A stretch of 64,000 nt of DNA, taken from assembly GCF_000022085.1 (NCBI RefSeq), contig NC_011887.1:248001-312000 (forward strand), read 5' to 3'. A program made the translations under genes and the position numbers. This document shows, in pieces, positions 913 to 44,766 of this stretch. Under the pieces are notes generated by a model. The model had not been told where the DNA came from. It was given only the letters and a program-made list of their open reading frames with translations, and ran no database searches. Within the stretch, counting starts at the first letter, position 1, and each line of letters opens with the position of its first letter. This DNA is from Methylobacterium nodulans ORS 2060. GTDB lineage: Bacteria > Pseudomonadota > Alphaproteobacteria > Rhizobiales > Beijerinckiaceae.

Positions 913-3390
913 ATGGTGGCGCTGCGTCGCGGACTTCTGGTCACGACGATCCTGGTGCCGTGCGGGGCCGTGGGGCTGGCCGGTCGCGCCGCCGCGCAGG
1001 GCGATACCATCGCCCTCGAGCAGATCGATGTCGTTCCGGTGACCCCGGTCGGCGGAGCCGGCGGTGCGGCCCGCGCCGAGACCGGCGCCGCCGGCGGCGC
1101 GCTGCCGCTCTCCAAGGTGCCGTTCACGGCCGAGACCGTCACCGCGCGCCAGTTCGAGCAGGACCGCGCCACCCTCGACCCCACCTTCACGCTGGCCCGC
1201 ACCACCCCCGGCGTCAGCCTCTCGGACGGCCAGGGCAACAGCTTCCGCCAGACCCTCACCTATCGCGGCTTCGACGCCTCCCCGCTCCAGGGCGCGCCCC
1301 AGGGGCTGGCCGTCTACCAGAACGGCACCCGCATCAACGAGGCCTTCGGCGACGTCGTGAACTGGGACCTGATCCCCCAGGTCGCCATCAACCGCATCGA
1401 CCTCGTCACCGGCAACCCGATCTTCGGCCTCAACGCGCTCGGCGGCGCGGTCAACATCGCGATGAAGAACGGCTTCACCTGGCAGGGCCAGGAAGTCTCG
1501 GTGATGGGCGGCTCGGACGGCCGCATCCTCGGCACCCTGCAATACGGCGAGGTGGTCGGGCCCTGGAGCTTCTACTTCGCCGGCGAGGGCCTCAAGGACG
1601 ACGGCTGGCGCTTCAGGTCGCCCTCCGAGATCGGCCGCGTCTATGCCGATATCGGCCATCGCACGCCCGATTCCGAGTTCCACCTCATCGCCTCGGGCGC
1701 CAAGACCTTCTTCGGGGCCACCTCCGCCGCGCCGGTCGATCTCCAGCGCCTCACCGAGCGGGCGATTTTCACCAACCCGCAGACCATCGACACCGAGGCC
1801 GGCCAGATCCAGGTCACCGGCAAGGTGAACCTCTCCCCGACCTGGGACCTCGCGGGCAACGCCTATGTGCGCCGCTTCAGCCAGTTCGTGGTCGACGGCA
1901 ACGACGGCAACTTCGAGAATTGCAGCACGCGCTCCTCTTTCCGCGGCTTTCTCTGTTTCGAGGACGACGGGTTCTCGCCCGCCCCCGGCCAGACCCAGGC
2001 GCAGTTCCGCAACCAGTTCCTGATCCTGGGGCCGAACGGCCAGCCGATCCCCTTCCGGGCAGGCATCCCGTACGGCACCCACGATACGGTCCGCACCGAG
2101 GCGACCGGCTACGGCGGCACGCTGCAGGCGACGAACCGCGACCGGGTGTTCGATCACGCCAACACCTTCATCCTCGGCGGCAGCATCGATGCGGCCTCCT
2201 ACACCTTCAAGTCGGCGAGCACGCTCGGGGTGATCAACCCGGACCTGAGCGTCACCACCGACCCGAACAACCCGACCTACGGCCTGATCCCCGGGCTCGG
2301 CACCGGGCCGATCCGCACCGCCGCGGCGCTCGGCGTCGCGCCGAGCCAGGTGATCGGCTCGAACCTCTACATGGGCCTCTACGCCCTCGACACCTTCGAC
2401 GTCACCGATCAGCTCTCGCTCACCGCCGGGGCGCGGCTGAACTTCGCGCGCATCTCCACCCAGGACCTGACCGGGTTCTCGCCGGATGTCACCGGCACGC
2501 ACTTCTTCACCCGCCTCAACCCGGTGGCGGGCCTGACCTACCGGTTCTTCCCCTGGCTGACGCTGTATGGCGGCTACTCGGAATCGAACCGGGCGCCGAC
2601 GCCGCTCGAACTGGCCTGCGCCAACCCGAACCGGCCCTGCCTGCTGCCGAACTCGCTGGTGGCCGACCCGCCGCTCCAGCAGGTGGAGGCACACACCTAC
2701 GAGGCGGGGATCCGCGGCACGGTGCCGGACGTCGCCGAGGGGGGCCTGCTCACCTACAAGCTCGGCTTCTTCCGCACGGACCTGACCAACGACATCCTGC
2801 AGATCGCGGTGCCCGGCAATGCGGCGCGGGGCTATTTCGTGAACGTGCCGGCGACGCAGCGGCAGGGCATCGAGGTGGCGGCGGAGTATGTGGGCGAGCG
2901 TCTGCGGCTTTACGCCAACTACGCGCTGATCGACGCCACCTTCCAGTTCCGCGGCGACCTGTCCTCGCCCAACAACCCGCTGGCCGATGACGGGCTGATC
3001 ACGGTGCGGCCGGGCAACAAGCTGCCGCTGGTGCCGGAGCACCAGATCAAGGCCGGCTTCGAGTACGCGATCACGCCGCAGTGGAAGTTCGGCCTGAACG
3101 TGGCGGCGTTCTCATCGTCGTACTTCCGGGGTGACGAGTCGAACCTGAACCGCAAGCTGCCGGCCTATGCGATCGCCAACCTGAACACGAGCGTGCAGCT
3201 GACGAGGAACATGGAGGTGTTCGCGCTGGTGACCAACCTGTTCAACACGCGCGTGCCGAACTTCGGCACCTTCCTGGAGCGGACGGAGCCGGGCGAGCTG
3301 TTCGCCAACCGCTACGCACTGAACGACCCGCGCACCACCGCTTTGATCCAGCCGCTCTCGGTCTATGGCGGCATGCGCGTGACCTGGTGA
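913..3390 (+). CDS. lutH: TonB-dependent outer-membrane receptor, probable lanthanide-chelate receptor (LutH-like)
   Basis: This is an outer-membrane beta-barrel receptor powered by TonB. The ATG at 913 follows a purine-rich GGGGAGCG and opens an ordinary signal peptide (MVALRRGLLVTTILVP, cleaved near AAAQG). A plug domain follows: it has SKVPFTAETVTARQF, then the conserved run through TYRGFD, LAVYQNGTRINEAFGD and NPIFGLNALGGAVNI. A long barrel comes next and ends with aromatic W after GGMRVT, as in true barrels. The protein is 825 residues, normal for the family. Substrate is inferred from context: in Methylorubrum extorquens the lanmodulin gene sits next to the TonB receptor LutH, and lanM lies two genes downstream here. 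The rest of the lut transporter is not in the window. A siderophore-type substrate cannot be excluded. Confidence 0.75.
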   Translation: MVALRRGLLVTTILVPCGAVGLAGRAAAQGDTIALEQIDVVPVTPVGGAGGAARAETGAAGGALPLSKVPFTAETVTARQFEQDRATLDPTFTLARTTPGVSLSDGQGNSFRQTLTYRGFDASPLQGAPQGLAVYQNGTRINEAFGDVVNWDLIPQVAINRIDLVTGNPIFGLNALGGAVNIAMKNGFTWQGQEVSVMGGSDGRILGTLQYGEVVGPWSFYFAGEGLKDDGWRFRSPSEIGRVYADIGHRTPDSEFHLIASGAKTFFGATSAAPVDLQRLTERAIFTNPQTIDTEAGQIQVTGKVNLSPTWDLAGNAYVRRFSQFVVDGNDGNFENCSTRSSFRGFLCFEDDGFSPAPGQTQAQFRNQFLILGPNGQPIPFRAGIPYGTHDTVRTEATGYGGTLQATNRDRVFDHANTFILGGSIDAASYTFKSASTLGVINPDLSVTTDPNNPTYGLIPGLGTGPIRTAAALGVAPSQVIGSNLYMGLYALDTFDVTDQLSLTAGARLNFARISTQDLTGFSPDVTGTHFFTRLNPVAGLTYRFFPWLTLYGGYSESNRAPTPLELACANPNRPCLLPNSLVADPPLQQVEAHTYEAGIRGTVPDVAEGGLLTYKLGFFRTDLTNDILQIAVPGNAARGYFVNVPATQRQGIEVAAEYVGERLRLYANYALIDATFQFRGDLSSPNNPLADDGLITVRPGNKLPLVPEHQIKAGFEYAITPQWKFGLNVAAFSSSYFRGDESNLNRKLPAYAIANLNTSVQLTRNMEVFALVTNLFNTRVPNFGTFLERTEPGELFANRYALNDPRTTALIQPLSVYGGMRVTW

Positions 3391-3418
3391 GCCCCGGCTG
3401 AGGCGGATTGCGCCGGTC

Positions 3419-4072
3419 ATGACCGGCGTGCTGATCATCGACGATCGCCCGATCGTTCTCGACACGCTCCGTAGGCTGCTCGCGCCCACGGGCATCACCG
3501 TGCACACGACGACCAGTCCGGCCGAGGGTGAACGCCTCGCCCGCGAGTTTGCGCTGACCCTCGTGGTGACGGACCTGGCCTTTCCCGGGACGCCCTTGGG
3601 CGGACTAGCGCTGATCCGCCGCCTGCGCAGCCGCCCTCCTGCCCCACGCGTGCTGGTGTTCAGTATGTACGACGAGGCTCCCGTTGCCCGTCAGGCCCTG
3701 CAGGCGGGCGCCCTCGGCTACGTCTGCAAGACCGCCGGCCTGGAGGAGTTCGCACAAGCCTATCGCTACGTTCTGAGCGGCAAGGGCTACCTCAATCCCG
3801 ACCTGGCCTTCGCCCTGGCGGTGCCCCCTCCACCGCCGGCCGATCCGCTCGACCGATTGACCGGGCGCCAGCTGCGCATCCTTCAGCTGTTGGCCGGTGG
3901 CCAGACCTACCGCAGGATTGCTGACCTCCTGCTGCTGAGCGTGAAAACCATCGCCAACGAGGTGGCCACCATCGGCCGGCAGGTTCAGGTCCCCGACAAG
4001 GCCGGTATGGTCCGTTTCGCGATCCGGTATCGGGATGCCATCGTCGCTAGGCAGGCTGCCGACCTCCCCTGA
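3419..4072 (+). CDS. MxaB-like response regulator (receiver + LuxR-type HTH)
   Basis: A 217-residue two-component regulator. The receiver starts at VLIIDDRPIVL, has the phosphorylatable Asp at about residue 52 in VVTDLAF, and the switch region RVLVFSMYDE and conserved Lys in GYVCKTAG. A helix-turn-helix follows a proline linker: LTGRQLRILQLLAGGQTYRRIADLLLLSVKTIANEVATI. It is a clear paralogue of MxaB in this window (compare RILVFSMHDD and SYKTVANTCSSM there). It lies 28 bases after the TonB receptor and about 200 before lanM on the same strand, so it may be co-transcribed with the receptor. A role in metal-dependent switching of methanol dehydrogenases is inferred. No partner kinase is nearby. 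The ribosome binding site before ATG 3419 is weak. Confidence 0.85.
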   Translation: MTGVLIIDDRPIVLDTLRRLLAPTGITVHTTTSPAEGERLAREFALTLVVTDLAFPGTPLGGLALIRRLRSRPPAPRVLVFSMYDEAPVARQALQAGALGYVCKTAGLEEFAQAYRYVLSGKGYLNPDLAFALAVPPPPPADPLDRLTGRQLRILQLLAGGQTYRRIADLLLLSVKTIANEVATIGRQVQVPDKAGMVRFAIRYRDAIVARQAADLP

Positions 4073-4267
4073 GCCGCTGCATCAGCGCCCGCGTGCGCCC
4101 GGCCCCGTGCGGCTTTGCCGCACTGCAACAGCCCAGCTCAGAGGCGATTGTGCACTGCCGCGGCGTCTGCACCGCTTGCCGCTGCATGATCCGGCGCCCA
4201 TGTGGACTCCACGTTGCTGGTTGCATGCAGCCGGGACGCGATGCGTCCCCAACGACAGGAGCTATCG

Positions 4268-4672
4268 ATGACCTCCGCCCTGCGGACAGCTGCCGTCCTC
4301 ACCGCCATGCTGGGCCTGATGCCCGCCGCGCCGGTCCTCGCCGCCAGCCCGGCGGCAGCGATCAAGGCAATGGATCCCGACAACGACGGCACCCTCGATC
4401 TCGCCGAGGTAAAAGCAGCCGCCACGGCGCTGTTCGCTGCGCTTGATCCGGACAAGGACGGGACCCTGGATGCCAAGGAGCTGAAGGGCCGTGTCTCGGC
4501 CAAGCAGCTCAAGGCGCTTGATCCGGACAAGGACGGCACGCTGGACCAGGCCGAGTACCTCGCCCTGGTCGAGGCGGCCTTCCAGGCTGCCAATCCTGAC
4601 GGCGACGGCACCGTCGATGCCAAGGAGCTGTCGACCAGCAAGGGTAAGGCGTTGCTGAAGCTCATCCAGTAA
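4268..4672 (+). CDS. lanM: Lanmodulin, periplasmic lanthanide-binding EF-hand protein
   Basis: A 134-residue secreted protein with a signal peptide cleaved near VLA-ASPAA (residue 25). It has four EF-hand loops at about residues 36-47, 60-71, 85-96 and 109-120. Every loop carries Pro at position 2 and Asp at 3, 5 and 9 (DPDNDGTLDLAE, DPDKDGTLDAKE, DPDKDGTLDQAE), and the fourth starts with Asn (NPDGDGTVDAKE), exactly as in the known lanmodulin. Adjacent loops are only 12-13 residues apart, the lanmodulin hallmark that separates it from calmodulin. ATG 4268 is preceded by AGGAG; the longer in-frame extension has no signal peptide logic. An inverted repeat GCTGCATG/CATGCAGC (4181-4188, 4224-4231) lies in the upstream region and could be regulatory. 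The family binds trivalent lanthanides with picomolar affinity. Confidence 0.96.
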   Translation: MTSALRTAAVLTAMLGLMPAAPVLAASPAAAIKAMDPDNDGTLDLAEVKAAATALFAALDPDKDGTLDAKELKGRVSAKQLKALDPDKDGTLDQAEYLALVEAAFQAANPDGDGTVDAKELSTSKGKALLKLIQ

Positions 4673-5706
4673 GTCCAGTAAGCATCGTCTCGCGCGATGG
4701 TGCCGGGTTGCTCGACTGACGGTCCGGCATCGCGTCCTCGGCTCCATCGCTGAGCCTGCCGACTGACGCGTGCAAGCGCGCCAGAGCTATGCCGCATGCA
4801 GCGCTACGGCTTGGCCGTAGCGCTTGCTACTTTCGAAGACCCTCCGCCACGCATGGGCGTCGGTTTTTCGCCGCTTCTTCATCCATGCCACCCCCCGCCA
4901 CTCGATTGGCCAACGACGAGCTAAGAGATCTAAGCGCATCACGGCGACATTTCCGCCGTTCCATATGATAAATTATTTATTATTTTAGTAACGCGCTGAT
5001 GGTTGAAATATAAAAATACAGTTTTCAGAAATATAGAACATCAAGAAGCTATATAATGAAAACAAGTATGCAGCTCTGGCACTCTCATCCTTGCTTATGC
5101 TAATATGCAATCCTTCACTATCGTATAATATTCGCCTGTCCGCGCTGTATCCTCACTATGGAAGGCGGCCTATGTCCGGTGAGGAGTTTGACCGTTATGC
5201 AGGAGCCGGGATCCTGTCCTGCCAGGGCAAGACTCAGGCAGTCTGCATCTTGGCATTCAACCTGGAGCAGATGCCCTTCACATCACAGACGATTGGGCGA
5301 TCTTGGGATTGCGCCGGAGCGTCGAAACCGCAGCACCGCAACCTCTTCCAGATGCAAGGACCCTTCCAACCGGTACCGAGCGAATTCCTGTGACCATGGT
5401 TTCACCAGCTGGACACGAGAACTACAATGGACCAAACAACCGTGAAGACTGTGCCATCCGGCAGATCGACCCGCCTGGCGTAGATGGTATTGGACAGCCG
5501 CGGCACGGCTGCAACGACGGCTATGGAGGTTCCGGGTCGGACCTCTTCAATGCATCTGTCGTTTAGTTGCATTACAGAGCGCATCTCTTTCTATGAACTC
5601 GCGTCGTGAATTCGATGTCGATTTCCACTGCGGATCTTCCCTTTTGTTCGAGGGTAAGATTTTGCAAGCTCTCCAAGAGACGGCAGCAGGCGATAGAGAT
5701 TAACCC
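4673..5706. other. Intergenic region between lanM and a small secreted-protein gene
   Basis: About 1 kb with no gene I can support. Bases 4960-5070 are strikingly AT-rich for this genome, and the short open frames nearby have no recognisable motif or convincing ribosome site. Apart from the hairpin at 4800-4824 I see no RNA gene or repeat. The AT-rich tract may be horizontally acquired or a decayed promoter region. Confidence 0.5.
4800..4824 (+). terminator. Hairpin terminator after lanM
   Basis: A perfect 11-bp stem (AGCGCTACGGC with its complement) closes on a 3-base loop and is followed by a T-containing stretch. It lies about 130 bases after the lanM stop. Confidence 0.55.
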
Positions 5707-6063
5707 TTATTTAGGAATTAGCAGACCGGGAATTACATTACCTTCTTTTCCAAATTTTTCGTGAGCCAGTTTGCAGTTTATCTGGCGATTTTCTTTGTAC
5801 TTCTCGGTGTATCTCATAGACTTGATCACATATGCCCCACTCGAAAGGGCCTCAAGATCGATGCCAAGGCTCATCATCACTTGCCGGAACCGATCATAAT
5901 CGGGCTTGTCATCCGGGCAATCCTCGGCAACGAACCGCACGAGGCCCGAGAGCTTGATGGCGGCGTCACTCATCGCGGAACTCGGCCCGAGTGATTCCCC
6001 TGCGACTGTAGTGACAGTTGTCAAAAAGCCAAATATCAAGACTGTTATGGCGAGCCGCACCAC
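5707..6063 (-). CDS. Small secreted hypothetical protein
   Basis: 118 residues from a GTG start at 6063, preceded by GGGAGATGATTTC, which gives good spacing. The N-terminus MVRLAITVLIFGFLTTVTTVAG is a signal peptide. The mature part carries two cysteines (AEDCPDD and INCKLAH) that could form one disulfide. It also has a motif PDYDRFRQVMMSLGIDL that resembles unnamed periplasmic proteins of Rhizobiales. It lies just beyond the 3' end of the mxa operon on the same strand but separated from it. Function unknown. Confidence 0.6.
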   Translation of the reverse strand: MVRLAITVLIFGFLTTVTTVAGESLGPSSAMSDAAIKLSGLVRFVAEDCPDDKPDYDRFRQVMMSLGIDLEALSSGAYVIKSMRYTEKYKENRQINCKLAHEKFGKEGNVIPGLLIPK

Positions 6064-6130
6064 GAAATCATCTCCCTGTTTAGATATGTCGCAGATTGAA
6101 GTGCCTTGAATCGGACCTTTTCACTCGGGA

Positions 6131-6766
6131 TCAGCTCTGGCTGTGGTGCCTGATTGCAAGGCGGATTAGTTCAGAAAGACTCTCGGCTCCGAGCTTGCGC
6201 CGCATGCTGGAGCACGTATTAGCCACCGTCTTATAACTCAGACTGAGGTATTTGGCGATCATTTCGTAAGATTTACCTCGCGAAAGAAGCAAGAAGATTT
6301 GCAACTCTCGTCCGGTGAGGGCCAAGAGCGGACTCACTCGCTGGCTGCTCTGGAGGATTGCCACCTTCATTGCGAGGCGATGATCGATGTAAGGCTCGCC
6401 GGCCTGGACCCGTGCGACGGCAGTGGCAAAGTCGACCGAGGGAGTATCTTTGAGAAGATAGCCGATCGCGCCGCCCTCCAGCGCGCGGGCGACGATCACC
6501 GGGTCGTCATGCATGCTGAACACGAGGATGCGAGTCGCCGGTTCGAGCGCGCGGATCCGCCGGATCAGCGAGAGACCGGTGAGGCCACTGTCCTGGAAAG
6601 TCAGGTCGGCCACCACCAGGCCGGGCCGGTTGCGGTAGAAGCTCTGGTAGCCCTCCTCCACGCCGGTGGCGACGTGGATCGTCGCGAGCCCGGCATCCTC
6701 CAGGACAACCCGGCACCCCTGCAGGACCACGGGATGATCGTCGATGATCAGAACGCTCCCGGACAT
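6131..6766 (-). CDS. mxaB: MxaB, response regulator required for methanol dehydrogenase expression
   Basis: 211 residues. The receiver is MSGSVLIIDDHPVVL with phospho-acceptor Asp54 in VVADLTF and switch Lys in GYLLKDTPS. The LuxR-type HTH is LTGRELQIFLLLSRGKSYEMIAKYLSLSYKTVANTCSSM. ATG 6766 follows GGGAGGTGAAC. It is the last gene of the operon, matching the position of mxaB in the known mxaFJGIRSACKLDEHB order, where MxaB activates mxa transcription. No partner kinase is adjacent. A 62-base gap separates it from mxaH, so it may also have its own promoter. Confidence 0.88.
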   Translation of the reverse strand: MSGSVLIIDDHPVVLQGCRVVLEDAGLATIHVATGVEEGYQSFYRNRPGLVVADLTFQDSGLTGLSLIRRIRALEPATRILVFSMHDDPVIVARALEGGAIGYLLKDTPSVDFATAVARVQAGEPYIDHRLAMKVAILQSSQRVSPLLALTGRELQIFLLLSRGKSYEMIAKYLSLSYKTVANTCSSMRRKLGAESLSELIRLAIRHHSQS

Positions 6767-6828
6767 GTTCACCTCCCGCTGCCGCGCTGTTCGGTTGGAG
6801 CGCATTCGGGTTGGCGTGGCGGCCATCA

Positions 6829-7335
6829 TCACGGCTGCTTCAGGCTCTGGGGTGCGTACTTGGTGCTGAGACGATCCACTGCGTCTCGATGTGCCGCTCC
6901 CGCAATCCTCGTGTTGACGTAGTGCTGGCCCAGCGAGCCGTAGAGCTGACGGGCGCCGGCCGCGGCGGCGATCCCCATGAGGCCGTCGAGGATCGGCTCG
7001 GCCTCTCCGGGCAAGCCGGCGGCGTGCAGCATGTCGAGCACCTGTGCGGTGCGGTTGGCGATCATTCGGGGATCCTTGATGAAGCGCGGCGCGGCCCGCG
7101 CCAGCGCCGCGCGCAGCCGGGCCACGGCCGGATCCTTCGCCGGTACCAACCGGCCCGCCGCGCGGGCGGCGAGCCAGAGCGCCGGATCCGTGCGGTCGTC
7201 GGGCGCGAGCCACGCCGGCATCGCCCCCGCATCGTGGCGGGCGACCACCGTGGCCGGCTGCGAGCCCCCCTCCCCTGCCTCGCCGCAGGCGGACAAGAGC
7301 AGGCAGGCCGCGGCGAGCTGCGCCCCGCGTCTCAC
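6829..7335 (-). CDS. mxaH: MxaH, putative lipoprotein of the methanol dehydrogenase operon
   Basis: 168 residues from a GTG at 7335 that overlaps the mxaE stop (GTGA). The N-terminus MRRGAQLAAACLLLSACGEAG is a lipoprotein signal with lipobox LSAC, so the mature protein should be membrane-anchored in the periplasm. The rest is helical and has no enzyme motif that I recognise. Assignment rests on position between mxaE and mxaB. Its molecular role in methanol oxidation is not known. Confidence 0.7.
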   Translation of the reverse strand: MRRGAQLAAACLLLSACGEAGEGGSQPATVVARHDAGAMPAWLAPDDRTDPALWLAARAAGRLVPAKDPAVARLRAALARAAPRFIKDPRMIANRTAQVLDMLHAAGLPGEAEPILDGLMGIAAAAGARQLYGSLGQHYVNTRIAGAAHRDAVDRLSTKYAPQSLKQP

Positions 7336-8276
7336 GGCGCGCCCGCGAGGCTGCGTGGCCCCTCCGCCAGGCCGAGGCGCGCGACCTCACGGCGCGCGGC
7401 CGGATCGACGAGCGAGAGATCCCCCGAGAACCAGTTGGCCACGGCGACCCGATCCGCCGCCACGGCGAGCACGCCCTCGGGATAGCGGCCCACTGCCACC
7501 TCGCCGGCGACCGCGAGCGTCGCCGCGTCCACGATCGAGACCGTCCCGGCCTGCTGGTTGCTGACTACGACGAAGCGTCCGTCCGGCGTCGGCGCGACAC
7601 CGTAGGGCATCGGCCCGACCGCGACGGTGGCGAGCGGGCGGAGCGTGCCCGTGTCGATGACGGTCAGGTCGCGGCTGCGCACGTTGGCGACGTAGAGGCG
7701 CGTTTCGTCCGGGCTGAGCGCGAGGGCAAAGGGGCCCTCCCCCGTCGGAACGGCACCGAGGACCCGCAGCGCGCGGGCGTCGATGACCACGACGCGGCGC
7801 TGCTCGCGCTCGGCCACGTAGAGGCGCCCGCCAGCCCGGTCGAGGACGAGGCCCGCTGGATCCTGCACCGGGACCGGGGCTCCGACCGGGGCGCCGGTGC
7901 GCGCGTCGAGCCGCGCCACCTCGTGCCGGACCCAGTCCCCCACGAACAGGACATCCCCGGCCGGCGCCACCGCGATCCCGAAGGGAGTCCCCGCATGGGG
8001 CAGCCGCGCCACCACACGCCCGGCTGCCGCGTCAATCACGCTGATCAGGCGATGGTCCGGATGGGTGACGTAGAGCCGCCCGTCCGGCCCCGGCGCAATC
8101 CCGGCCGGTCCGGGTCCGACCGGGATCATCGCGGCGACACGCCCGGCCGCCACGTCGATGCGCGTCACCACCCCGCCTTCCTGGCTCACCACATAGGCAT
8201 CCCCGGCCTGGGCCGGCGCGGCGGCGGGCGTGCCCGCGAGGAGCGCGACAACGGGGGCGGCGAAGCGCCGGCCCAT
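7332..8276 (-). CDS. mxaE: MxaE, secreted YVTN-type beta-propeller protein
   Basis: 314 residues with a signal peptide (cleaved near APAQAGDA), then repeated propeller blades such as GPAGIAPGPDGRLYVTHP, GTPFGIAVAPAGDVLFVGD, GPFALALSPDETRLYVANV and MPYGVAPTPDGRFVVVSN. YVTN repeats of this kind are related to quinoprotein folds but show no PQQ site. ATG 8276 shares one base with the mxaD stop. The name follows the conserved gene order D-E-H-B. A scaffold or chaperone role in the periplasm is an inference. Confidence 0.75.
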   Translation of the reverse strand: MGRRFAAPVVALLAGTPAAAPAQAGDAYVVSQEGGVVTRIDVAAGRVAAMIPVGPGPAGIAPGPDGRLYVTHPDHRLISVIDAAAGRVVARLPHAGTPFGIAVAPAGDVLFVGDWVRHEVARLDARTGAPVGAPVPVQDPAGLVLDRAGGRLYVAEREQRRVVVIDARALRVLGAVPTGEGPFALALSPDETRLYVANVRSRDLTVIDTGTLRPLATVAVGPMPYGVAPTPDGRFVVVSNQQAGTVSIVDAATLAVAGEVAVGRYPEGVLAVAADRVAVANWFSGDLSLVDPAARREVARLGLAEGPRSLAGAP

Positions 8277-10412: not shown

Positions 10413-11470
10413 GCGACACGCCTCGCGTCGGCTGGAGCCGATCCGGCGCGCACGACATCGGCTGCGTCCGACGCCCGGCAGGGAGCGGCGAGATCCGCCT
10501 CGATCAGCTTGGCGAGCAGCAGGATCCCGATGCAGAGGCCGGCGAGCCCGTAGGCGAGCCCGGTCAGGTCGCGCCGCGGCCGCTCCTCGACGAGGGCGAT
10601 CGGGTGGCGTTCGAGGCGGTCGATCTCGCGGATCGCCTCCTCCACCGCCTGAGGGCTCTCCGCCTCGAAGGCGCGGTAGGGCACGCCGAGGCCGCGGAAG
10701 AACAGGTCGAGGTGGCGCTCGGGCGCGGCTTGAGGCGTGTCCTCGCCGGAGGGCCGGTCGGCGAGCCCGGGCGAGCCCGCCGTGCGCAGGAACAGCCAGT
10801 AGAGGGTCGGGCGCAGCTGCGCGAAGGCGGCGCGCAGCGTGTCCTGCGTCCGGCGGTCGATCACGGCGGCCCCGTCGGAGACGAGGAGCAGCACACGCCC
10901 GGTGCTCGCGCCGGCACCGAACTGGGACAGGGCGAGGCCGAGGCCCCGCGCGACGTTGGTGGCGTCGAGCCCCGGCCGGTCGATGGCGCGGATCGCGGCC
11001 CGCACCGCCTCGGAGCGGTCGGTCATCGGCAGCACGGCGATCGGCGCCGTCGAGAAGACCGAGACCGCGACCTGGTCGTGCGGGCGCCGGCCGACGAACT
11101 CGGCCAGCAGCCGGCGCGAGGCCGCCGCCTTCGACTCCTCCGCACCGGAGGGCTGCCGGCCGGCGAAGCTCTCGTTCATGCTGCCGCTGCGGTCGATGAG
11201 GAGCGAGACCTGGGCGCCCGTGCCGGTGCGGTGGATCCGCTCGCCGCGCAGGAACGGCCCCGCTACGGCGACGAGCGTGAAGCCGATCGCCCCGATGCCG
11301 GCGAGCGTGAGGCCAAGCCCGATCGCGCGCGACAGGCCGTCGGCTGGCACCATCGCGGCGGCGGGCAGCGGGTGCCGGCGCAGCGCCGGGCCGAGGAGCG
11401 GCAGCAGGGCGAGCGGCAGCAGCCAGAGCAGGTCGGGCGTCGTCGCAGCGAGGCGGGCGAGGAGGCTCAT
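10409..11470 (-). CDS. mxaC: MxaC, von Willebrand A membrane protein for MDH maturation
   Basis: 353 residues. N-terminal hydrophobic helices (LLWLLPLALLPLLG and LGLTLAGIGAIGFTLVAVAGPF) precede a vWA domain with intact MIDAS motif LLIDRSGSMNES and a second loop LLVSDGAAVID. A C-terminal helix lies at GLAYGLAGLCIGILLLAKLI. The layout matches BatA-like proteins that pair with MoxR ATPases, here MxaR. Start and stop overlap mxaA and mxaK by four bases each, so the whole RSACKL block is translationally coupled. Confidence 0.87.
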   Translation of the reverse strand: MSLLARLAATTPDLLWLLPLALLPLLGPALRRHPLPAAAMVPADGLSRAIGLGLTLAGIGAIGFTLVAVAGPFLRGERIHRTGTGAQVSLLIDRSGSMNESFAGRQPSGAEESKAAASRRLLAEFVGRRPHDQVAVSVFSTAPIAVLPMTDRSEAVRAAIRAIDRPGLDATNVARGLGLALSQFGAGASTGRVLLLVSDGAAVIDRRTQDTLRAAFAQLRPTLYWLFLRTAGSPGLADRPSGEDTPQAAPERHLDLFFRGLGVPYRAFEAESPQAVEEAIREIDRLERHPIALVEERPRRDLTGLAYGLAGLCIGILLLAKLIEADLAAPCRASDAADVVRAGSAPADARRVA

Positions 11471-12414
11471 GCGGGCCGCTCCGCAATGCGCTCCACGGCG
11501 GCGAGCCGGCGCGCCACGGTCTCGGCCTCGGCGAGGGGCCAGGCCGCCCGCGCGCCGGCCGGGTCCCGCCCGAAGAAGGTCTCGCGCGAAGCCTGGAAGA
11601 ACCGCGCCAGCGGCTGCGCCAGCGGCCGGTAGACGGGGTGGCGGTCCAGGAAGGCGCCGAGATCATCGGCGAGCACCCGGCGCCCGGCGGTCCGGTCGAG
11701 GCCCCGGTGCAGGGCGAGGAGCGCGCCGCGATAGGCGGCGTCCGGGTCCGGCGAGCGGGCGAGGCGGCGCAGCTGCCGCAGGGCGGCCGCGAAGGCGCGG
11801 GCCGGGCGGCGGCGAAAGAGCCACCACGCCCGGTCATGGGCCAGGAGGCCGAGGGCGGCGAGCGCGAGGGCGGAGAGGCCGAGGGCCGCAACGGTAGCGG
11901 GCCCCGGATCACGGCGCGGCGCGGGCGCCTGCGGGCGCATGTGATCGGCGGGATCATCCACCGGCGCCGGCTGCACCTCGCGCAGGGGCGAGACGCCGAC
12001 CGGCCAGCCCGGCACCTCGGCGCTCGCCGTGGTGAGCGCGGCGGCTGTCTGTGCCGCAAAGGTGACCGGGAAGCCCGGCACTTCGAGCTTGCGCGCGTCG
12101 AGGGCGACGTAGAAGGTCTGGTAGGTCAGCGTCAGGCGCCAGCGGCGCTCGCCGTCCTTCACGGGGCCGGCCGTGACCGCGACCGCGCGCAGGTCGAGCC
12201 AGCGGGTCAGGGGCCCGGGCTTCGGCAGCGACGCCGGTTCGAGAGAGAGGCCGTCCGCGACGGCGATCTCGACCTCTGCGGTGAACAGGTCGCCAGCGAA
12301 AAGCCCGAAGGGCCGCGGGCTGCGCACCACGACGTCGCCGACCTGCGCGGCGGCCGGCGCCGCCGTGAGGATGGCGAGCAGAACGAGGAGCGCGGGGATG
12401 GCACGGCCCCTCAT
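11467..12414 (-). CDS. mxaA: MxaA, periplasmic/membrane protein for MDH maturation
   Basis: 315 residues with a signal peptide (IPALLVLLAILTAAPAAAQ), a periplasmic beta-rich region, one membrane helix at about residues 175-190 (TVAALGLSALALAALGLLA) and a cytoplasmic helical tail. The layout is that of the BatD-like partner of MoxR/vWA systems. ATG 12414 overlaps the mxaS stop. In the known operon mxaA mutants make calcium-free, inactive methanol dehydrogenase. Confidence 0.85.
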   Translation of the reverse strand: MRGRAIPALLVLLAILTAAPAAAQVGDVVVRSPRPFGLFAGDLFTAEVEIAVADGLSLEPASLPKPGPLTRWLDLRAVAVTAGPVKDGERRWRLTLTYQTFYVALDARKLEVPGFPVTFAAQTAAALTTASAEVPGWPVGVSPLREVQPAPVDDPADHMRPQAPAPRRDPGPATVAALGLSALALAALGLLAHDRAWWLFRRRPARAFAAALRQLRRLARSPDPDAAYRGALLALHRGLDRTAGRRVLADDLGAFLDRHPVYRPLAQPLARFFQASRETFFGRDPAGARAAWPLAEAETVARRLAAVERIAERPA

Positions 12415-13262
12415 GCGGCCGTCCCCAGGAGGTGCCGGGACAACTCATCCGCATCGAGCCGGCCGGCGAGCCGGTAGGGCGGGCGCCCGCGGGCGAGGGC
12501 CAGCCGATGCAGCGCCGTGCGGAATGCCGCCTCGCGGGCGAGCCAGCGGGCCTTCAGCGCCGGGCGCATCAGCACCAGCCGCCTTCCGCCGCCTTCGAGG
12601 TCGTCGAGGGCGAGGAGACCGAAATCCGGGAGATCCGCCCCCAGCGCATCGTCATCCACCAGGACCGGGACGAGGTCGTGCGGCGCGAGCCGGTCGAACA
12701 GCGCCGCCACCTGCGCCTCCGGCATCCGGAAGTCCGAGACCACCAGCACCAGCCGGCGCCGTCCCGCCAGGCGCCCGGCGGCCGCGACCAGCCCGGCGGC
12801 TCCGCGGCCGTGCGGGACCACGGCGTCGAGCATCGCGGTGACGCGGGCGGCGGCGCAGCGCCGCCGGGTCGCCGGCAGGGTCACGTCCTCGCGCGGGCCG
12901 GCATCGCAGCCGATCAGCCCGAAGGCGTCGCCGATCCGCGTCGCCGAATGCGCCAGCGCGACGCAGAGATCGCACGCGAGGCGCCAGGGCTCGGACCGGC
13001 CGCAAAAGCGCATCGAGGCCGAGAGGTCGAGCAGCACCCAGACCTCCACCGCGCGGGGCTGCTCGAACCGCCGCACCATCGTGGTGCCGAACGGGTCGCG
13101 CAAGGTGGCGCGCAGGTCGATCCGCCGGGCATCGGGATGGCGCCAGAACGGCACCTGATCGCGAAAAATCCCGGGTCCGCCGGTGTCGCGGGCGCGGTGC
13201 GCTCCGGGTCCGGGACCGGCTGCCGGGTCCCGTAGGCGGTAGAGAATGTCGGGTGCGCTCAC
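12411..13262 (-). CDS. mxaS: MxaS, DUF58 family protein
   Basis: 283 residues from GTG 13262 overlapping the mxaR stop. The DUF58 signature region is present: FRDQVPFWRHPDARRIDLRATLRDPFG near residues 32-60, then EVWVLLDLSASMRFCG, which is a vWA-like metal site. DUF58 proteins work with MoxR AAA ATPases, and the partner MxaR is directly upstream. The start codon is weak but the coupling to mxaR supports it. Confidence 0.85.
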   Translation of the reverse strand: MSAPDILYRLRDPAAGPGPGAHRARDTGGPGIFRDQVPFWRHPDARRIDLRATLRDPFGTTMVRRFEQPRAVEVWVLLDLSASMRFCGRSEPWRLACDLCVALAHSATRIGDAFGLIGCDAGPREDVTLPATRRRCAAARVTAMLDAVVPHGRGAAGLVAAAGRLAGRRRLVLVVSDFRMPEAQVAALFDRLAPHDLVPVLVDDDALGADLPDFGLLALDDLEGGGRRLVLMRPALKARWLAREAAFRTALHRLALARGRPPYRLAGRLDADELSRHLLGTAA

Positions 13263-14290
13263 GGCACCGGCACCGCGGCGAGGACGGCCCGGCAGAGCTC
13301 GGGCACGAGGCGCTCGCGGCGCATCTCGTAGACCGGCTCCAGGAAGACCCGGTGCGCCATGGTCTCGAGAAAAACCTCGCGCACGTCCTCCGGCACCAGC
13401 ATGTCGCGGCCTTCGAGCCAGGCCCGCACCCGCGCCGCCCGGATCAGGAAGGCGATGCCGCGCGGGCTCGCCCCGCCCTGCACCAGCGCCTCCATGGCGA
13501 TGTCGGGCAGGCGGATCCCCGCCGCGGCCGGATCGAGCAGCGCCGCCCAGAGCGCGACCACGTAGGCTTCGAGGTCGGGGCTGGCGTGGATGCCGTGCTG
13601 GATCGCCGCGGCAATCCCCCCGATCGCGGCGTGGTCGAGGATGCCCGGGGCGACCTCGCCGATAAGCCGGTCGGTGTCGTGGAAGCGCGGATCGAAGGCG
13701 AGGCGGCGGCGCAGCTCCGGATCGCGGGGCGCCTCGAGGCCGATCTCCATGAGGAAGCGGTCGCGGGCCGCCGCGGGCAGCTCGAAGGTCTCCTCGCGCT
13801 CGACGCGATTGCGGTCGGCAAAGACCAGGAGATGCGGGAAGCGGTACTCGCGCTCGAAGGCCTGGACGCTGCGCTCCGCCATCAGCCGCAGCAGCAGGGC
13901 ATGGACCTGTGGCCGCGCCCGGTTGATCTCGTTGAAGAAGAAGACCGAGAGATCCTCCGCCCGGCGCAGCACGGGGCCGGGCTCCACCCGCGGACGGCCA
14001 TCATCAGCCAGGAAGGTGTGATAGATCAGGTCGGCCGGCATCAGGTCGACCGTGCCTTCGATGCGCTCGTAGGAGCCGCCGAGCGCCCGCGCCACGGCGC
14101 GCAGCAGGGTGGTCTTGCCGACGCCCACATCGCCTTCGAGCAGGACGTGCCCGCGGACGAAGATCGCGATGGTGACAAGGCGGATCGCCCGCTCCTGACC
14201 GATCACGGCCTTTCCCACCTCGCGCTCGAAACGCAGGGCGGCCTCGCGCCAGTCGGTCAGCATCGCATCGGCGGGACGGATCTGGTTCAT
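13259..14290 (-). CDS. mxaR: MxaR, MoxR-type AAA+ ATPase
   Basis: 343 residues, the founding MoxR type. Walker A is GDVGVGKTTLLRA near residue 54 and Walker B is SVFFFNEINRARP near 112. The sensor region follows at LLVFADRNRVEREETFELP, and the MoxR lid sequence ISPRGIAF appears as ASPRGIAFLIRAARVRAW. It is thought to act as a chaperone with DUF58 and vWA partners to mature methanol dehydrogenase. It begins the coupled accessory block, 133 bases after mxaI and beyond two strong hairpins. Confidence 0.92.
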   Translation of the reverse strand: MNQIRPADAMLTDWREAALRFEREVGKAVIGQERAIRLVTIAIFVRGHVLLEGDVGVGKTTLLRAVARALGGSYERIEGTVDLMPADLIYHTFLADDGRPRVEPGPVLRRAEDLSVFFFNEINRARPQVHALLLRLMAERSVQAFEREYRFPHLLVFADRNRVEREETFELPAAARDRFLMEIGLEAPRDPELRRRLAFDPRFHDTDRLIGEVAPGILDHAAIGGIAAAIQHGIHASPDLEAYVVALWAALLDPAAAGIRLPDIAMEALVQGGASPRGIAFLIRAARVRAWLEGRDMLVPEDVREVFLETMAHRVFLEPVYEMRRERLVPELCRAVLAAVPVP

Positions 14291-14414: not shown

Positions 14415-14423
14415 ACGCGCGGA

Positions 14424-14723
14424 TTACTGGCTGGCGAGCTTGGTGACGTCGTATTCGAAGCGGCCGGTCCTCTTGAAGGCCTCGACGCGCTTGCGGTTGC
14501 GCTCCTCCATCGCCTTGATCGAGTCTGCCTGCTTGTTGAGTTCCTTGGGATCGTGTTTGGGATCGTACTTCGTCCCGGCGATCTTGTCGGGGAAGCCGGG
14601 CTTGGGCTCCCAGCAATCGCCTGCGGCTTTGCACTTGGTGCCGTCATAGGCGAGCGCCGGGAGCGCGGTTCCGGCGACGAGCGTTCCGGCAGCGATGGCC
14701 GCTGCCGCAAGTGTCATGCGCAT
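14424..14723 (-). CDS. mxaI: MxaI, methanol dehydrogenase small (beta) subunit
   Basis: 99 residues with signal peptide (MRMTLAAAAIAAGTLVAGTALPALA) and mature start YDGTKCKAAGDCWEPKPGF, which matches the known beta subunit including its disulfide pair of cysteines. The lysine-rich C-terminal helix (KQADSIKAMEERNRKRVEAF) wraps around MxaF in the alpha2beta2 enzyme. ATG 14723 is preceded by an excellent AAGGAGG site; a second ATG lies two codons later. The strong site fits high expression. Confidence 0.96.
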   Translation of the reverse strand: MRMTLAAAAIAAGTLVAGTALPALAYDGTKCKAAGDCWEPKPGFPDKIAGTKYDPKHDPKELNKQADSIKAMEERNRKRVEAFKRTGRFEYDVTKLASQ

Positions 14724-14816
14724 CAGGTGTTCCTCCTTGGGTTCGATCGGCGGTTGCTGCCGCCCGTGTCGCGCTGGCGCGCGATCTTCTCGACGCTCCC
14801 GGATCAAGTCCGGCGG

Positions 14817-15425
14817 TCACGACTTGCCGCTCCCGCGGCACATCCCGGGCGGATCGTCCGGGAAAGTCTCGCCGAGCTTGTAGGGCGTGTATGACTTCTT
14901 CTGATCCTCGCTCAGCCACTCTGCATCCTGCGCCGGCCCGGTATAGAGATGCCGGACCCAGGCCATGGCCTGGAGGATGTCGTCGAGCGTGAGCGAGAGC
15001 GATTGCGGGCCCATCTGAGCCTGGGCGCCGCCGAACACGATCGAGAACAGGCCCGCATCGGTCGTACCCTGCGGATAGGTCCAGTAATTGTCGTTGAGGC
15101 CGGGCCCGATCTTGCCCTCGCCGACATGGCCGTGGCAGCCGGAGCAGGCGGCGAGGAAGGTCTGCTCGCCCTTCTTCAGGCAGGAGGCGTCGAACAGGTA
15201 GGGATTGCGGCCGCTGGCGAGGAAGCGCTTGACGCCCTCGGTGTCGCGGCCCTCGGGCAGGGCCTCGTTGAGGTCGAGCTTTTCCCCGGTGACGACGCTG
15301 CGCAGGTCGACGCTGCTGCTCTGCGCCGTGGCCCGCGGCGACAGGGCACCCGCGAGGGGGCCGAGGGCCGTGATGGTGACGACGAGCCCGAGGCTTGCGC
15401 TCAAGGCGGTCCAACGCTTCATCAT
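14817..15425 (-). CDS. mxaG: MxaG, cytochrome cL, electron acceptor of methanol dehydrogenase
   Basis: 202 residues with signal peptide ending near PRATAQ. One c-type haem site CSGCH lies at residues 94-98. The context EQTFLAACSGCHGHVGEGKIGPGLNDNYWTYP is characteristic of cytochrome cL. The C-terminus ends with a cysteine (GMCRGSGKS). It takes electrons from PQQ of MxaF in the periplasm and passes them to cytochrome cH. ATG 15425 is followed immediately by a second ATG. Confidence 0.95.
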   Translation of the reverse strand: MMKRWTALSASLGLVVTITALGPLAGALSPRATAQSSSVDLRSVVTGEKLDLNEALPEGRDTEGVKRFLASGRNPYLFDASCLKKGEQTFLAACSGCHGHVGEGKIGPGLNDNYWTYPQGTTDAGLFSIVFGGAQAQMGPQSLSLTLDDILQAMAWVRHLYTGPAQDAEWLSEDQKKSYTPYKLGETFPDDPPGMCRGSGKS

Positions 15426-15487
15426 GCACGCGACTTTCTGGATGACGAGGAGGTGGGTTCGAGGGGCAGGCGCGCTCGCGCGCTCGA

Positions 15488-16333
15488 TCACGAGCCGGTC
15501 GGCAGCGTCGGCACGCCTTCCTCCTTCAGGATCGCCTCGATGGCGGGCTTGGCCTTGGCGAGGCCAGCCTCCAGCTCCTTCAGCAGGGTCTCGTCCCCAC
15601 GGCGCACCCCCATCGACTGGTCGAACTGCATCGTGATCTTCTGGCCGTCGCGGCTTGCGTCATCCGCGATCAGGGTCATGCGCAGGGGCACGGGCGAAGC
15701 CTTGACGAAGCGCGCCACCTCCGGCGCGAAGGGCGCTGCAATGGCTGCCTTGCCGGTCGCCACCTCCTCCACGAGGCGGGCCGGTTCGATCTGGGTGTAC
15801 TGGTTGCGCGGCGAGCGGAAATTCACCAGCGAGTAGAGGTAGGCCATGTCCTCCTCGTAGCGGCCGATGCGCTTGAGCATCGCCTCGCTCGGGGAGCCGA
15901 ACGGCACCGCCACGTGGCCCACCTGCTTGAGCCGCGGATCGGTCCAGGACGCGACGTCCAGCCCGTCCTGCTGGCGGCTGATGAAGACATAGCCGCTGCG
16001 GTAATAGGGCCGCGTGGTCAGCACCCGCGCATCCCCGGTGTCGAGGCCCGCGATCACGTCGCAGAGCTTCTTGTCGAGGAAGTCGCGCACCAGGTAGATC
16101 GCCGGCTTGTCCGACCAGACGAACTCCACCTTGCGGTCCATGGCGGCGGCCACGGCGGCCGCGACCTTGTTCTCGAGGCCGCTGCCGTCGCGTAGGGACA
16201 GGGGCGGCTGGCTGGCGGCGGCGCAGACGCGCAAGGCCGGCTGGCCGGTGGCGGGCGCTGTAGCCGGGGCGGCGCCCGCGGCTGCGGCCAGCGCCGTCAG
16301 GCCGGCGAGCCCGCCGACGAGGGATCTCAGCAT
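15488..16333 (-). CDS. mxaJ: MxaJ, periplasmic solute-binding-like protein of the MDH system
   Basis: 281 residues from ATG 16333 with a signal peptide (SLVGGLAGLTALAAAAGAAPA). The body is a family 3 periplasmic binding fold: LRVCAAASQPPLSLRDGSGLENKVAAAVAAAM, then LCDVIAGLDTGDARVLTTRPYYRSGYVFISR and KITMQFDQSMGVRRGDETLLKEL. In the operon it lies between mxaF and mxaG as expected. MxaJ is needed for MDH assembly and has been found associated with the enzyme in some species. It is not part of an ABC importer here. Confidence 0.93.
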   Translation of the reverse strand: MLRSLVGGLAGLTALAAAAGAAPATAPATGQPALRVCAAASQPPLSLRDGSGLENKVAAAVAAAMDRKVEFVWSDKPAIYLVRDFLDKKLCDVIAGLDTGDARVLTTRPYYRSGYVFISRQQDGLDVASWTDPRLKQVGHVAVPFGSPSEAMLKRIGRYEEDMAYLYSLVNFRSPRNQYTQIEPARLVEEVATGKAAIAAPFAPEVARFVKASPVPLRMTLIADDASRDGQKITMQFDQSMGVRRGDETLLKELEAGLAKAKPAIEAILKEEGVPTLPTGS

Positions 16334-16367
16334 GCTCTCAATCCGTGACAATCAGGCCCAAGGGGAC

Positions 16368-16393
16368 GGGCCGGGCCGATGACGGCCCGGCCC
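16368..16393 (-). promoter_or_regulatory. Perfect hairpin directly after mxaF
   Basis: An 11-bp GC-only stem pairs 16368-16378 with 16383-16393 around a 4-base loop. It begins 8 bases after the mxaF stop in the transcript and ends before mxaJ. No U tract follows. It probably protects the mxaF message from 3' decay or reduces read-through. Confidence 0.6.
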
Positions 16394-16400
16394 TGGCTGA

Positions 16401-18290
16401 TCAGTTGGCCGCCACGTACTCGCCGGTATTCGGGTCGTCGTAGGGACCCTTGCCGTCGAGGGAGAACACGGTCACGCCACCGCCCATCTGGGTGTAGTTG
16501 GCGAGCTTCTTGAAGGCGCCGACCGCGCCGAGGCCGGCGGTCGGATCCTGCAGGTCGAAGACGAGGCCGACGCCCGGCCAACCGCCGACGCCGTAGTAGA
16601 TCGCCACGTACTGGGTGCCCTTGTGGGTGTAGGTAACGGGATAGCCGATCGCGCCCGAGGGCAGCTTCGCCTTCCAGAGCAGTTCACCCGTGTCGGAGTG
16701 GCGCGCCTTGATGAAGCCGTCCAGGGTTCCGTAGAAGACCACGTTGCCGGCGGTGGCGAGCGTTCCGCCCCAGACCGCGAAACGCTCCATCTTCTCCCAT
16801 TTGAACTTGCCGGTGATGGCGTCGTAGGCCTTGATCTGGCCGAGGCCCTCGGCGTTCTGGCGGTCGCCCTTCGGGCCCGGATACATGTTGAGCGTCGCGC
16901 CGACGAAGAACTGCCCGGCGCGGTAGGGCAGCATGAAGGGCTCCCAATCCATGCAGATGTGGTTGATGCCCATGTAGAAGAGCTTGCGCTCCGGATCATA
17001 GGAATCGTGGCCCTGGTTGTGATAGCCCATCGCGGAGGGACAGATGTCCTTGGCGAGATGGTCCATCCGGGTGCCGTATTCCGGATCGCGCACCGGCAGG
17101 CCCGACTTGAGGTCGACGGTCTTGAAGACGTTGACGGTGTCGTCGATCTTGTGGGCGGAGATCAGGTCGCCGTTGGTGCGGTCGAGGGTGTAGACGATGC
17201 CGTTGCGGTCCGGATGCGTCAGCAGCTTGCGCTCCTTGCCGCTCCGGTCCTTCTGGGTCGAGAGCATCATCACGTTGACGCCCGCGTAATCCCACTCGTC
17301 GTGCGGCGTCTTCTGGTAGCCGAACTTGGCCTCGCCGGTATCGACGTCGCGGGCGAAGATGGTCATCGTCCACTTGTTGTCGCCCGGACGCATGGTCTCG
17401 TTCCAGGGCGCCGGGTTGCCGGTGCCGAAATAGATCAGGTTGGTGCCGGGGTCATAGGCGTACCAGCCCCAGTTGGTGCCGCCGCCGATCTTCCAGGCGT
17501 CGCCCTCCCAGGTCGAGGTGCCGAGCCCCTTCTGGCCGTAATGGGCGTTGTGGATGTTGAAGTCCTTGGCCAGCAGCAGGTCGGAATCCGGACCCGTGGC
17601 GTAGGCGCGCCACTTCTGCTCGCCCGTGCGGACGTCGTAGGCGGTGAGATAGCCGCGCACGCCGAGTTCGGCGCCCGAGGAGCCGATGATCACCTTGTCC
17701 TTGACCACATAGGGGGCGATGGTGAGCGTCGAGCCGACCCGGATATCGGAATTCTCGATCTTCCAGACGGTCTCGCCCGTCTGGGCGTTGAGGGCCACGA
17801 CGTGGCCGTCGAGCAGCGTCTTGAGGATCAGGGACGGGGTCTTGCCGTCGCCCGGCCAATAGGCGAGGCCGCGGTTGACGAGGTCGCAGCAGGCCACCGA
17901 GCGCGCCGCCGGGTTCTGCTTGGGCTTGTCCTGCCACAGGATCTTGCCCGGATCGTCCAGGCCGAGCGCGAAGGTGTTGTTCGGGAACGAGGTGTGCACG
18001 TACATCGTGCCGTCGACGACGAGCGGCGCGCCTTCGTGGCCGTTCAGCAGTCCGGTCGAGAACTGCCACGACACCTTCAGGTTCTTGACGTTCTCGGCGT
18101 TGATCTGCTTCAGCTTGCTGTAGTTGTCGGAGTCGTAGTTCTTCCCGGGCATCACCCAGTTTCCGTCGCTCTTCGACAGCTCGACGAGCTTGTCGTTCGC
18201 GAGCGCCGAAGGGCCGGCGAGCGGCAGCAGCGCCGCCAGGGCAGCCACTGACACCCCCGTCCGACAACGAACCACAATCTTACCCAGCAT
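16401..18290 (-). CDS. mxaF: MxaF, calcium-dependent PQQ methanol dehydrogenase large subunit
   Basis: 629 residues. A 31-residue signal peptide ends ALA-NDKL. In mature numbering the vicinal disulfide is Cys103-Cys104 (VACCDL). The metal ligands are Glu177 (GAELGV) and Asn261 (GTGNPAPWN), and the catalytic base is Asp303 (HDEWDYAG). The residue two after that Asp is Ala, not the extra Asp that marks lanthanide-dependent XoxF, so this is the calcium enzyme. The propeller tryptophan-docking repeats run to the end. It oxidises methanol to formaldehyde in the periplasm. ATG 18290 follows GGGAGA. First gene of the operon, with an AT-rich leader upstream. Confidence 0.98.
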
Positions 18291-44757: not shown

Positions 44758-44766
44758 TGCGCCAGC

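Follow-up and report, generated by a model that had tools for sequence, protein, structure and literature searches.

In the lut cluster of Methylorubrum extorquens AM1, lutH and the lanmodulin gene lanM stand together (PMC7391723). In M. aquaticum 22A, tonB_Ln lies upstream of mxcQE; a delta-mxaF delta-tonB_Ln strain does not grow on methanol with lanthanum (La), MxaF-dependent growth requires MxcQE, expression of lanM depends on MxcQE as well as on TonB_Ln, and mxcQ expression is held steady by LanM (PMC9260416). The xoxF1 cluster of M. silvestris contains lutBAH-like genes and so places lanthanide uptake genes beside a methanol dehydrogenase (MDH) cluster (PMC9291206). Here we describe a locus of Methylobacterium nodulans ORS 2060 at which genes for a TonB-dependent receptor, an orphan response regulator and a lanmodulin lie beside a complete mxa operon for calcium-type MDH. 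The locus was analyzed within a stretch of 64,000 nucleotides (the window), positions 248001-312000 of contig C1 (458,070 bases).

The block shares with the AM1 lut cluster a TonB receptor gene 5′ of lanM and a four-proline lanmodulin, but it has no adjacent lutA-G, its receptor is only about 35% identical to LutH of Methylorubrum loci, and a regulator gene separates receptor and lanM (PMC7391723). The receptor family and gene order of the 22A locus are shared by related genomes, and M. nodulans itself has such a locus on its chromosome (L015; survey labels for genomes and loci begin with G and L), where the receptor gene is followed by a kinase gene with a LapD_MoxY_N domain and then by a regulator gene. 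In contrast, the plasmid copy lacks the kinase, and the orphan regulator, lanM and mxa lie behind the receptor instead. The M. silvestris cluster likewise sets lanthanide uptake genes beside MDH genes, but it contains xoxF1 and its lanM is elsewhere (PMC9291206). We propose, with a probability of roughly 0.6, that the M. nodulans block serves as an accessory cassette for methanol oxidation and lanthanide switching on plasmid pMNOD02.

Gene content of the plasmid block

The assembly comprises 8.84 Mb in 8 contigs, of which the chromosome (C7) accounts for 7,772,460 bases. The window was taken to be part of pMNOD02 because the replicon sizes fit those reported for strain ORS 2060 (8.84 Mb in total, with a chromosome of 7.77 Mb and pMNOD02 of 0.46 Mb; PMC11837538) and because a panB-type ketopantoate hydroxymethyltransferase gene is present at 36702-37499, panB having been placed on pMNOD02 (PMC3082293). 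The window copies of mxaF and mxaI were the sole matches of that level in the genome, and the lutA-G, xoxF and mxcQE-like genes are chromosomal. Open reading frame (ORF), Pfam and synteny searches indicated that the receptor, regulator and lanmodulin genes lie on the + strand and that the mxa operon converges on them from the − strand. The regulator gene starts 29 bases after the receptor gene, lanM starts 196 bases after the regulator gene, and 1,459 bases separate the lanM stop codon from the 3′ end of mxaB. Thus, each element that a preliminary description of this stretch had reported, namely, a TonB receptor, an MxaB-like regulator and a four-EF-hand lanmodulin about 1.5 kb from the 3′ end of a complete mxa operon, was confirmed. 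Start codons in the following list are our choice; the receptor start was set at 913, and the listed ORF starts at 871 (TTG).

69..607: glycosyltransferase gene fragment, 93.8-94.6% DNA identity to the chromosomal gene upstream of a TonB_Ln-regulator pair (C7:7.11 Mb) (blastn; Pfam of the chromosomal gene)
913..3390, + strand: TonB-dependent receptor, TonB_Ln/LutH type, 825 residues (Pfam Plug and TonB barrel; own-genome copies; lutH-slot homologues; gene order of the 22A knockout gene)
3419..4072, + strand: orphan NarL/LuxR-type response regulator, MxaB/MxcE branch (Pfam Response_reg and GerE; alignment; distribution; tree)
4268..4672, + strand: predicted lanmodulin, EF hands DPDNDGTLDLAE, DPDKDGTLDAKE, DPDKDGTLDQAE and NPDGDGTVDAKE (Pfam, structure match, loop pattern; dN/dS)
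5103..5694, + strand: gene remnant in three frames, middle part missing, of the gene at the mxaW position elsewhere (tblastn, six-frame comparison)
5707..6063, − strand: small ORF of 118 residues at the end of the mxa locus (conserved in six clade-C loci, 47-51%)
6131..6766, − strand: mxaB, full-length response regulator (Pfam, tblastn synteny, tree)
6829..7221, − strand: mxaH (synteny and tblastn; no Pfam match)
7332..8276, − strand: mxaE, beta-propeller (domain search, tblastn synteny)
8276..8809, − strand: mxaD (Polyketide_cyc2, tblastn synteny)
8806..9810, − strand: mxaL, VWA (domain search, tblastn synteny)
9807..10412, − strand: mxaK (tblastn synteny)
10409..11470, − strand: mxaC (tblastn synteny)
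11467..12414, − strand: mxaA (tblastn synteny)
12411..13262, − strand: mxaS (tblastn synteny)
13259..14290, − strand: mxaR, MoxR-type ATPase (domain search, tblastn synteny)
14424..14723, − strand: mxaI, MDH beta subunit (PF02315)
14817..15425, − strand: mxaG, cytochrome c (family search)
15488..16351, − strand: mxaJ (TIGR03870)
16401..18248, − strand: mxaF, Ca-type MDH large subunit (DEWDYAG), the genome's only mxaF (family search, motif)

The mxa operon runs from 18248 to 6131, and all 14 of its genes are open, in the order mxaFJGIRSACKLDEHB; the identities of mxaA, mxaC, mxaK, mxaS and mxaH are those given by tblastn synteny with other mxa loci. Gene content and order are alike in AM1, whose operon we take to read mxaFJGIRSACKLDEHB as well. 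Differences from AM1 are that the operon is plasmid borne, that the mxaW-position gene is broken and lies at the 3′ end, and that a conserved small ORF follows mxaB, as in clade-C loci. The Ca-type position is Ala in MxaF (DEWDYAG) and Asp in the chromosomal XoxF (DEWDYDG), in keeping with the Ala/Asp rule that separates the MDH types (PMC8561711). Plasmid-borne mxa genes are not unique to M. nodulans, as they also occur on large plasmids in M. aquaticum 22A and M. bullatum, where the mxa stretches examined showed no lanM.

The receptor is assigned to the TonB_Ln/LutH lanthanide type by family and gene order, as are the mxcQ and mxcE names used here, and its putative orthology to TonB_Ln of 22A is likewise judged from these two features. 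Homologues (E ≤ 1e-150) were found in 104 of 111 Methylobacterium genomes, with identities of 37 to 86% outside M. nodulans. We read 18 loci from the most similar genomes (L121-L138) for 1.5 kb on each side of the receptor gene (less for L127 and L131). In 11 of them, an 82-84% homologue precedes an mxcQ-like kinase gene (MoxY domain) within 1.5 kb, and in two (L128 and L136) a window-type regulator gene lies next to the receptor gene. In lut clusters, the lutH slot is filled by homologues of 61-77% identity (L052, L097, L139-L141 and L143-L148), a point relevant to the comment in PMC8561711 that another receptor may serve strains lacking lutH. These two sets of neighborhoods uphold the earlier attribution of the gene to lanthanide uptake, insofar as they mark a lanthanide-type receptor. 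The chromosomal lut cluster of M. nodulans (L153) contains lutA-G, with no receptor (lutH) gene and no lanM within the 20 kb read, so that other loci of the genome must provide receptor and lanmodulin. In the window and in the 19 kb preceding it, lut products gave only paralogue-level matches (LutB to mxaE, 25-33%; LutE to other ABC ATPases, 31-32%). On a plasmid of M. fujisawaense (L019, 7857-11491), a TonB_Ln homologue is split around an IS66 transposase gene.

The orphan regulator is 40% identical to MxaB (6131-6766), and alignment shows that Asp52, Lys104 and the acidic pair are all conserved in it. A midpoint-rooted tree of 28 regulators, with some long branches, placed the window type in a clade of its own (100/100) inside the MxaB/MxcE branch (99/98), and we classify the protein as MxaB-like and not as MxaB. 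At a cutoff of 1e-48, with only 27 of the about 60-130 candidates per listed genome scored, window-type regulators were found in 3 of the 111 Methylobacterium genomes, twice in M. nodulans (G000), twice in G049 and once in G050. All five copies lie directly behind a TonB_Ln gene. The plasmid regulator grouped with a G049 regulator (L157; 96/89) rather than with its paralogue on the M. nodulans chromosome. Outside the genus, one locus (L208, in G319) has genes for a kinase, an MxaB-like regulator, a TonB receptor (41%) and lanmodulin in a row.

The best solved-structure match of the EF-hand protein is lanmodulin (6mi5; E = 5.2e-38). Its four EF hands are closely spaced, with spacers of 12, 13 and 12 residues between loops, and its N terminus, read by eye, resembles a signal peptide. 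Proline occupies loop position 2 in all four loops and in only one of four in the chromosomal lanmodulin (L013, G000:C7:4218386). The loop pattern fitted 82 of 87 lanM sequences; L052, L097, L142, L144 and L145 are not in the proline list. The plasmid lanM product shares 55-57% identity with its chromosomal counterpart and, depending on the aligner, 71-79% with the single lanmodulin of M. oryzihabitans; against the latter, the ratio of nonsynonymous to synonymous substitution rates (dN/dS) is 0.20. The chromosomal lanM lies beside a CNNM/CorC gene, a cyclase gene and a MucR gene, as does lanM of 22A (PMC9260416). We conclude that the EF-hand protein is, by sequence, loop prolines and 12- to 13-residue spacing, a lanmodulin with predicted lanthanide binding and that M. 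nodulans appears to carry two lanmodulins of different types.

The 1.5-kb gap between lanM and mxaB is AT rich and holds a small ORF and a frame-broken remnant. The small ORF (5707-6063) has counterparts at the same operon end in six clade-C-type loci (L011, L109 and L112-L115). In these six loci, the mxaB match covers residues 2-133 only (L109, L112 and L115) or is missing (L011, L113 and L114), and mxaB of the window is full length. The remnant (5103-5694) derives from a gene of about 270 codons or more that we take to be mxaW; its G056 member has a borderline Trypsin_2 match. Its counterparts are divergent from mxaF in L100, L101, L110, L012 and L117 and lie at the operon 3′ end in L011, L109 and L112-L115.

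Linkage of lanM and mxa

Among the 111 Methylobacterium genomes, many of them drafts in which linkage across contig ends can be missed, 110 contained lanM, 85 contained mxaI and 84 contained both. By eye, and among the matches listed, lanM lies within 20 kb of mxaI in only two of the 84, M. nodulans and G056. For 11 genomes with mxaI and one unlisted lanM match each, the mxa neighborhood was read instead; lanM was not found there, 3 of these stretches (L102, L107 and L111) stopping short of the operon end. In G056, a 62-67% receptor homologue and lanM lie on the mxaF side, beside the mxaW-position gene (L100), and the lut cluster of that genome (L154) has a receptor gene of its own, lanM not being found in it. 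In G017, G042, G094, G096 and G098, lanM and mxaI share a contig at a distance of 92-118 kb, perhaps as part of a conserved wider neighborhood. A universal arrangement is thus rejected for Methylobacterium, where the two gene sets are usually at separate loci, as had been supposed.

Outside the genus, 80 lanM loci were retained out of 315, and one of them (L053) shares the layout of the M. nodulans block. Genomes were then sampled from the order (397) and from a single family (103). Taking lanM at E ≤ 1e-15 and mxaI at E ≤ 1e-10, lanM lies less than 10 kb from mxaI in 8 of the 11 Hyphomicrobium genomes with both genes and in 9 of 16 in the whole family; the genomes are related, and the eight do not amount to eight independent events. 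The synteny comparison thus went against a general arrangement in Methylobacterium and revealed a frequent one in Hyphomicrobium. Seven of the eight linked loci (L053, L200, L202 and L212-L215) have a regulator gene directly 5′ of lanM, and several have the orientation seen in M. nodulans; in L053, from a proteobacterial metagenome-assembled genome, regulator (+), lanM (+) and mxa (−) follow one another within 10-kb flanks. The eighth (G547, L211) reads mxa, mxaH-kinase-mxaB, lanM, a receptor gene (38%), lutB, lutA, a XoxJ-like gene and a partial XoxF-like gene, at which the stretch ends. In G285 (L200 and L219), the order is mxaB, kinase, mxaH and the mxa operon, followed by lanM, regulator, kinase, lutB, lutA, a XoxJ-like gene and a gene for a XoxF-like protein that is 43% identical to XoxF and has the Ln-type motif DQWDYDG. 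In G533 (L214), xoxF (72%, DEWDYDG) stands beside regulator, lanM and mxa. The other three of the 11 genomes (G535, G539 and G543) have no mxa near lanM, and two of them keep a regulator beside lanM (L216 and L217).

In the regulator tree, six of the Hyphomicrobium lanM-linked regulators fell outside the MxaB/MxcE branch and formed a group (98/97) with the regulators encoded near lanM at two Bradyrhizobium loci; the regulator of G285 was more distant. The resemblance between the M. nodulans block and the Hyphomicrobium loci therefore does not extend to the regulators, which differ in family; two of the Hyphomicrobium loci moreover hold lutBA and a XoxF-like gene at the same place. The idea of a compact metal-switch region, put forward in the preliminary description for M. 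nodulans, holds better for the Hyphomicrobium loci than for the M. nodulans block, which is a composite on a plasmid.

History of the block

Over 900-3388, the window receptor gene and the mxcQE-linked chromosomal copy share 99.7% DNA identity, and the match stops at that point. Because the identity covers just the gene, gene conversion of the receptor is indicated. A second chromosomal receptor gene (C7:7113298, L016) is followed by the same type of regulator gene; the window is 99.4-99.6% identical to it over 2001-3000, 89-94% identical over the rest of the receptor gene and 76-80% identical in the regulator gene. That this copy is a pseudogene was rejected, as its single TAA stop precedes the likely start. 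The glycosyltransferase fragment at 69-607 marks the segment as homologous to this chromosomal block. A simple recent copy of the chromosomal receptor-regulator block was nevertheless partly rejected, because the plasmid regulator groups with that of G049 and because identity falls to 76-80% in the regulator gene. The three TonB_Ln copies of M. nodulans and the two of G050 have been kept alike as the regulators behind them diverged; in G050, the synonymous divergence (dS) between the two receptor genes is 0.05, compared with about 0.4 between species. We conclude that the TonB_Ln copies have been homogenized by gene conversion while their regulators diverged. In G049, two of three TonB_Ln copies (L160 and L161) match only in separate pieces and look broken.

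The available comparisons argue that the block is a composite and not an ancient unit, made up of a clade-specific TonB_Ln-regulator pair, a lanM that differs from the chromosomal gene and an mxa operon whose nearest relatives are those of clade C. The suggestion that lanthanide sensing and calcium-MDH control evolved side by side at this locus was not supported, since the pieces, on a plasmid, differ in history.

PLSDB, which may leave out records of the organism's own genome, contained only one plasmid lanM, in M. extorquens CM4. There, on the conjugative plasmid pCMU01 (L018, 12097-12700), lanM has an in-frame TAG stop and lies beside a remnant of the 23 C-terminal residues of xoxF (91%), and we conclude that the two are a decayed lanM-xoxF pair. 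Elsewhere in the M. nodulans window, genes for a sulfatase-modifying enzyme, a sulfatase and a HAD hydrolase stand in a row at 42113-45860, preceded by that of a MetA-pathway (phenol) protein, and a P-type cation ATPase gene with Cation_ATPase_N and Cation_ATPase_C domains lies on the plasmid at 52749-55328.

Function, rival explanations and significance

The plasmid supplies the cell's only operon for Ca-dependent MDH and, beside it, a further lanthanide-type receptor, a periplasmic-type protein predicted to bind lanthanides and a regulator. On the model that we prefer, TonB_Ln would admit lanthanide complexes to the periplasm, a role taken from the 22A knockout, and lanmodulin would bind them there. 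Lanthanide would then lower mxa expression and raise that of the chromosomal XoxF by way of the chromosomal MxcQE-like system, MxbDM (known from other strains), the plasmid MxaB and the orphan regulator. The orphan regulator, which has no kinase gene adjacent to it, could be fed by the MxcQ-like kinase or by another. The plasmid copies would raise the dose of receptor and lanmodulin and would give the mxa operon local regulators. The parts look functional, to judge from open frames, conserved regulator residues and dN/dS values of 0.20 (lanM) and 0.32 (regulator versus chromosomal paralogue). We infer that the block modulates the neighboring mxa operon, that the two are coregulated and that placement next to mxa matters.

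Several observations weigh against the cassette model. lanM and mxa are on opposite strands and do not form one transcript, and scans for promoters, terminators and inverted repeats (500-6900 and 3380-6200) found nothing above shuffled sequence. Two of the five regulators (L160 of G049 and L156 of G050) have Gly as the second acidic-pair residue, so that some copies may not be working phospho-receivers. Homogenization of the receptors was computed for the copies of M. nodulans and G050. LanM is dispensable for methylotrophy in 22A (PMC9260416). Finally, linkage is rare in Methylobacterium: under random placement, calculated post hoc from rounded inputs, 0.08 cases would be expected within 2 kb and 0.41 within 10 kb, with a probability of 0.06 for two or more. 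The two linked genomes, of a genus whose members are not independent, are only modestly above chance, which is suggestive and no more.

That rarity also counts in favor of the strongest rival, that recombination happened to set the lanthanide genes next to mxa, with no regulatory link between them, and that they act, or are redundant, as extra copies regardless of position. The glycosyltransferase fragment homologous to the chromosomal block and the broken mxaW-position gene fit a chance juxtaposition of this kind. Against it, purifying selection seems to act on lanM and the regulator, G056 has a different arrangement of a TonB_Ln-type receptor and lanM beside mxaF, and lanM is close to mxaI in most of the Hyphomicrobium genomes that have both. 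We regard chance juxtaposition as possible and a serious competitor, though the less probable account.

Many TonB receptors of this fold serve iron, and the ligand is not readable from the sequence alone, so that an iron-siderophore receptor next to a calcium-binding EF-hand protein would make this no lanthanide locus at all. We consider this very improbable: the iron reading of the receptor was rejected by family, by gene order (the 82-84% homologues in TonB_Ln-mxcQE order, with a 22A member that has a lanthanide phenotype, and the 61-77% homologues in the lutH slot), and by that published phenotype, and the EF-hand protein has the loop prolines and spacing of lanmodulin. Horizontal transfer from a Hyphomicrobium-type lanM-mxa locus, to which the shared order regulator (+), lanM (+) and convergent mxa (−) of L053, L202 and L215 might point, was judged the least likely of all, given pairwise identities, taken without lanM or mxa trees, of 95% for MxaF to M. 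oryzihabitans versus 78-80% to Hyphomicrobium-family loci (L203, L211 and L219) and, for lanmodulin, of 71-79% versus 54-67% to the Hyphomicrobium genus, and given the placement of the window regulator with MxaB/MxcE and of six Hyphomicrobium regulators with the two from Bradyrhizobium.

Returning to the cassette model, a wider and more tentative proposal is that the lanM-adjacent regulators, both the Hyphomicrobium/Bradyrhizobium family and the TonB_Ln-linked type of the M. nodulans group, respond to lanthanides and tie lanmodulin to Ca-MDH expression. The lanM-regulator-mxa arrangement might then be a recurrent "switch superlocus," assembled independently at least twice and once on a plasmid, an idea that we hold to be doubtful at present. 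The plasmid lanM of M. nodulans and lutH genes on plasmids are already listed in PMC12482762, and the kinds of gene involved are known. No report of lanM beside mxa in M. nodulans or Hyphomicrobium was found in the open-licence literature, and as far as that literature and our searches go, neither the arrangement nor the clade-specific receptor-regulator pair nor the Hyphomicrobium loci have been described as a unit.

The lanM-regulator-mxa loci offer a handle for direct genetic tests of how methylotrophs sense lanthanides and shut off the Ca enzyme. In the strains described in PMC9260416, LanM showed no clear growth phenotype. Since the M. nodulans replicon carries panB, it may not be curable as a whole (PMC3082293). 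In clade C, mxaFI is reported from only six strains (PMC8561711). The M. nodulans locus suggests that Ca-dependent methanol oxidation can travel together with lanthanide components.

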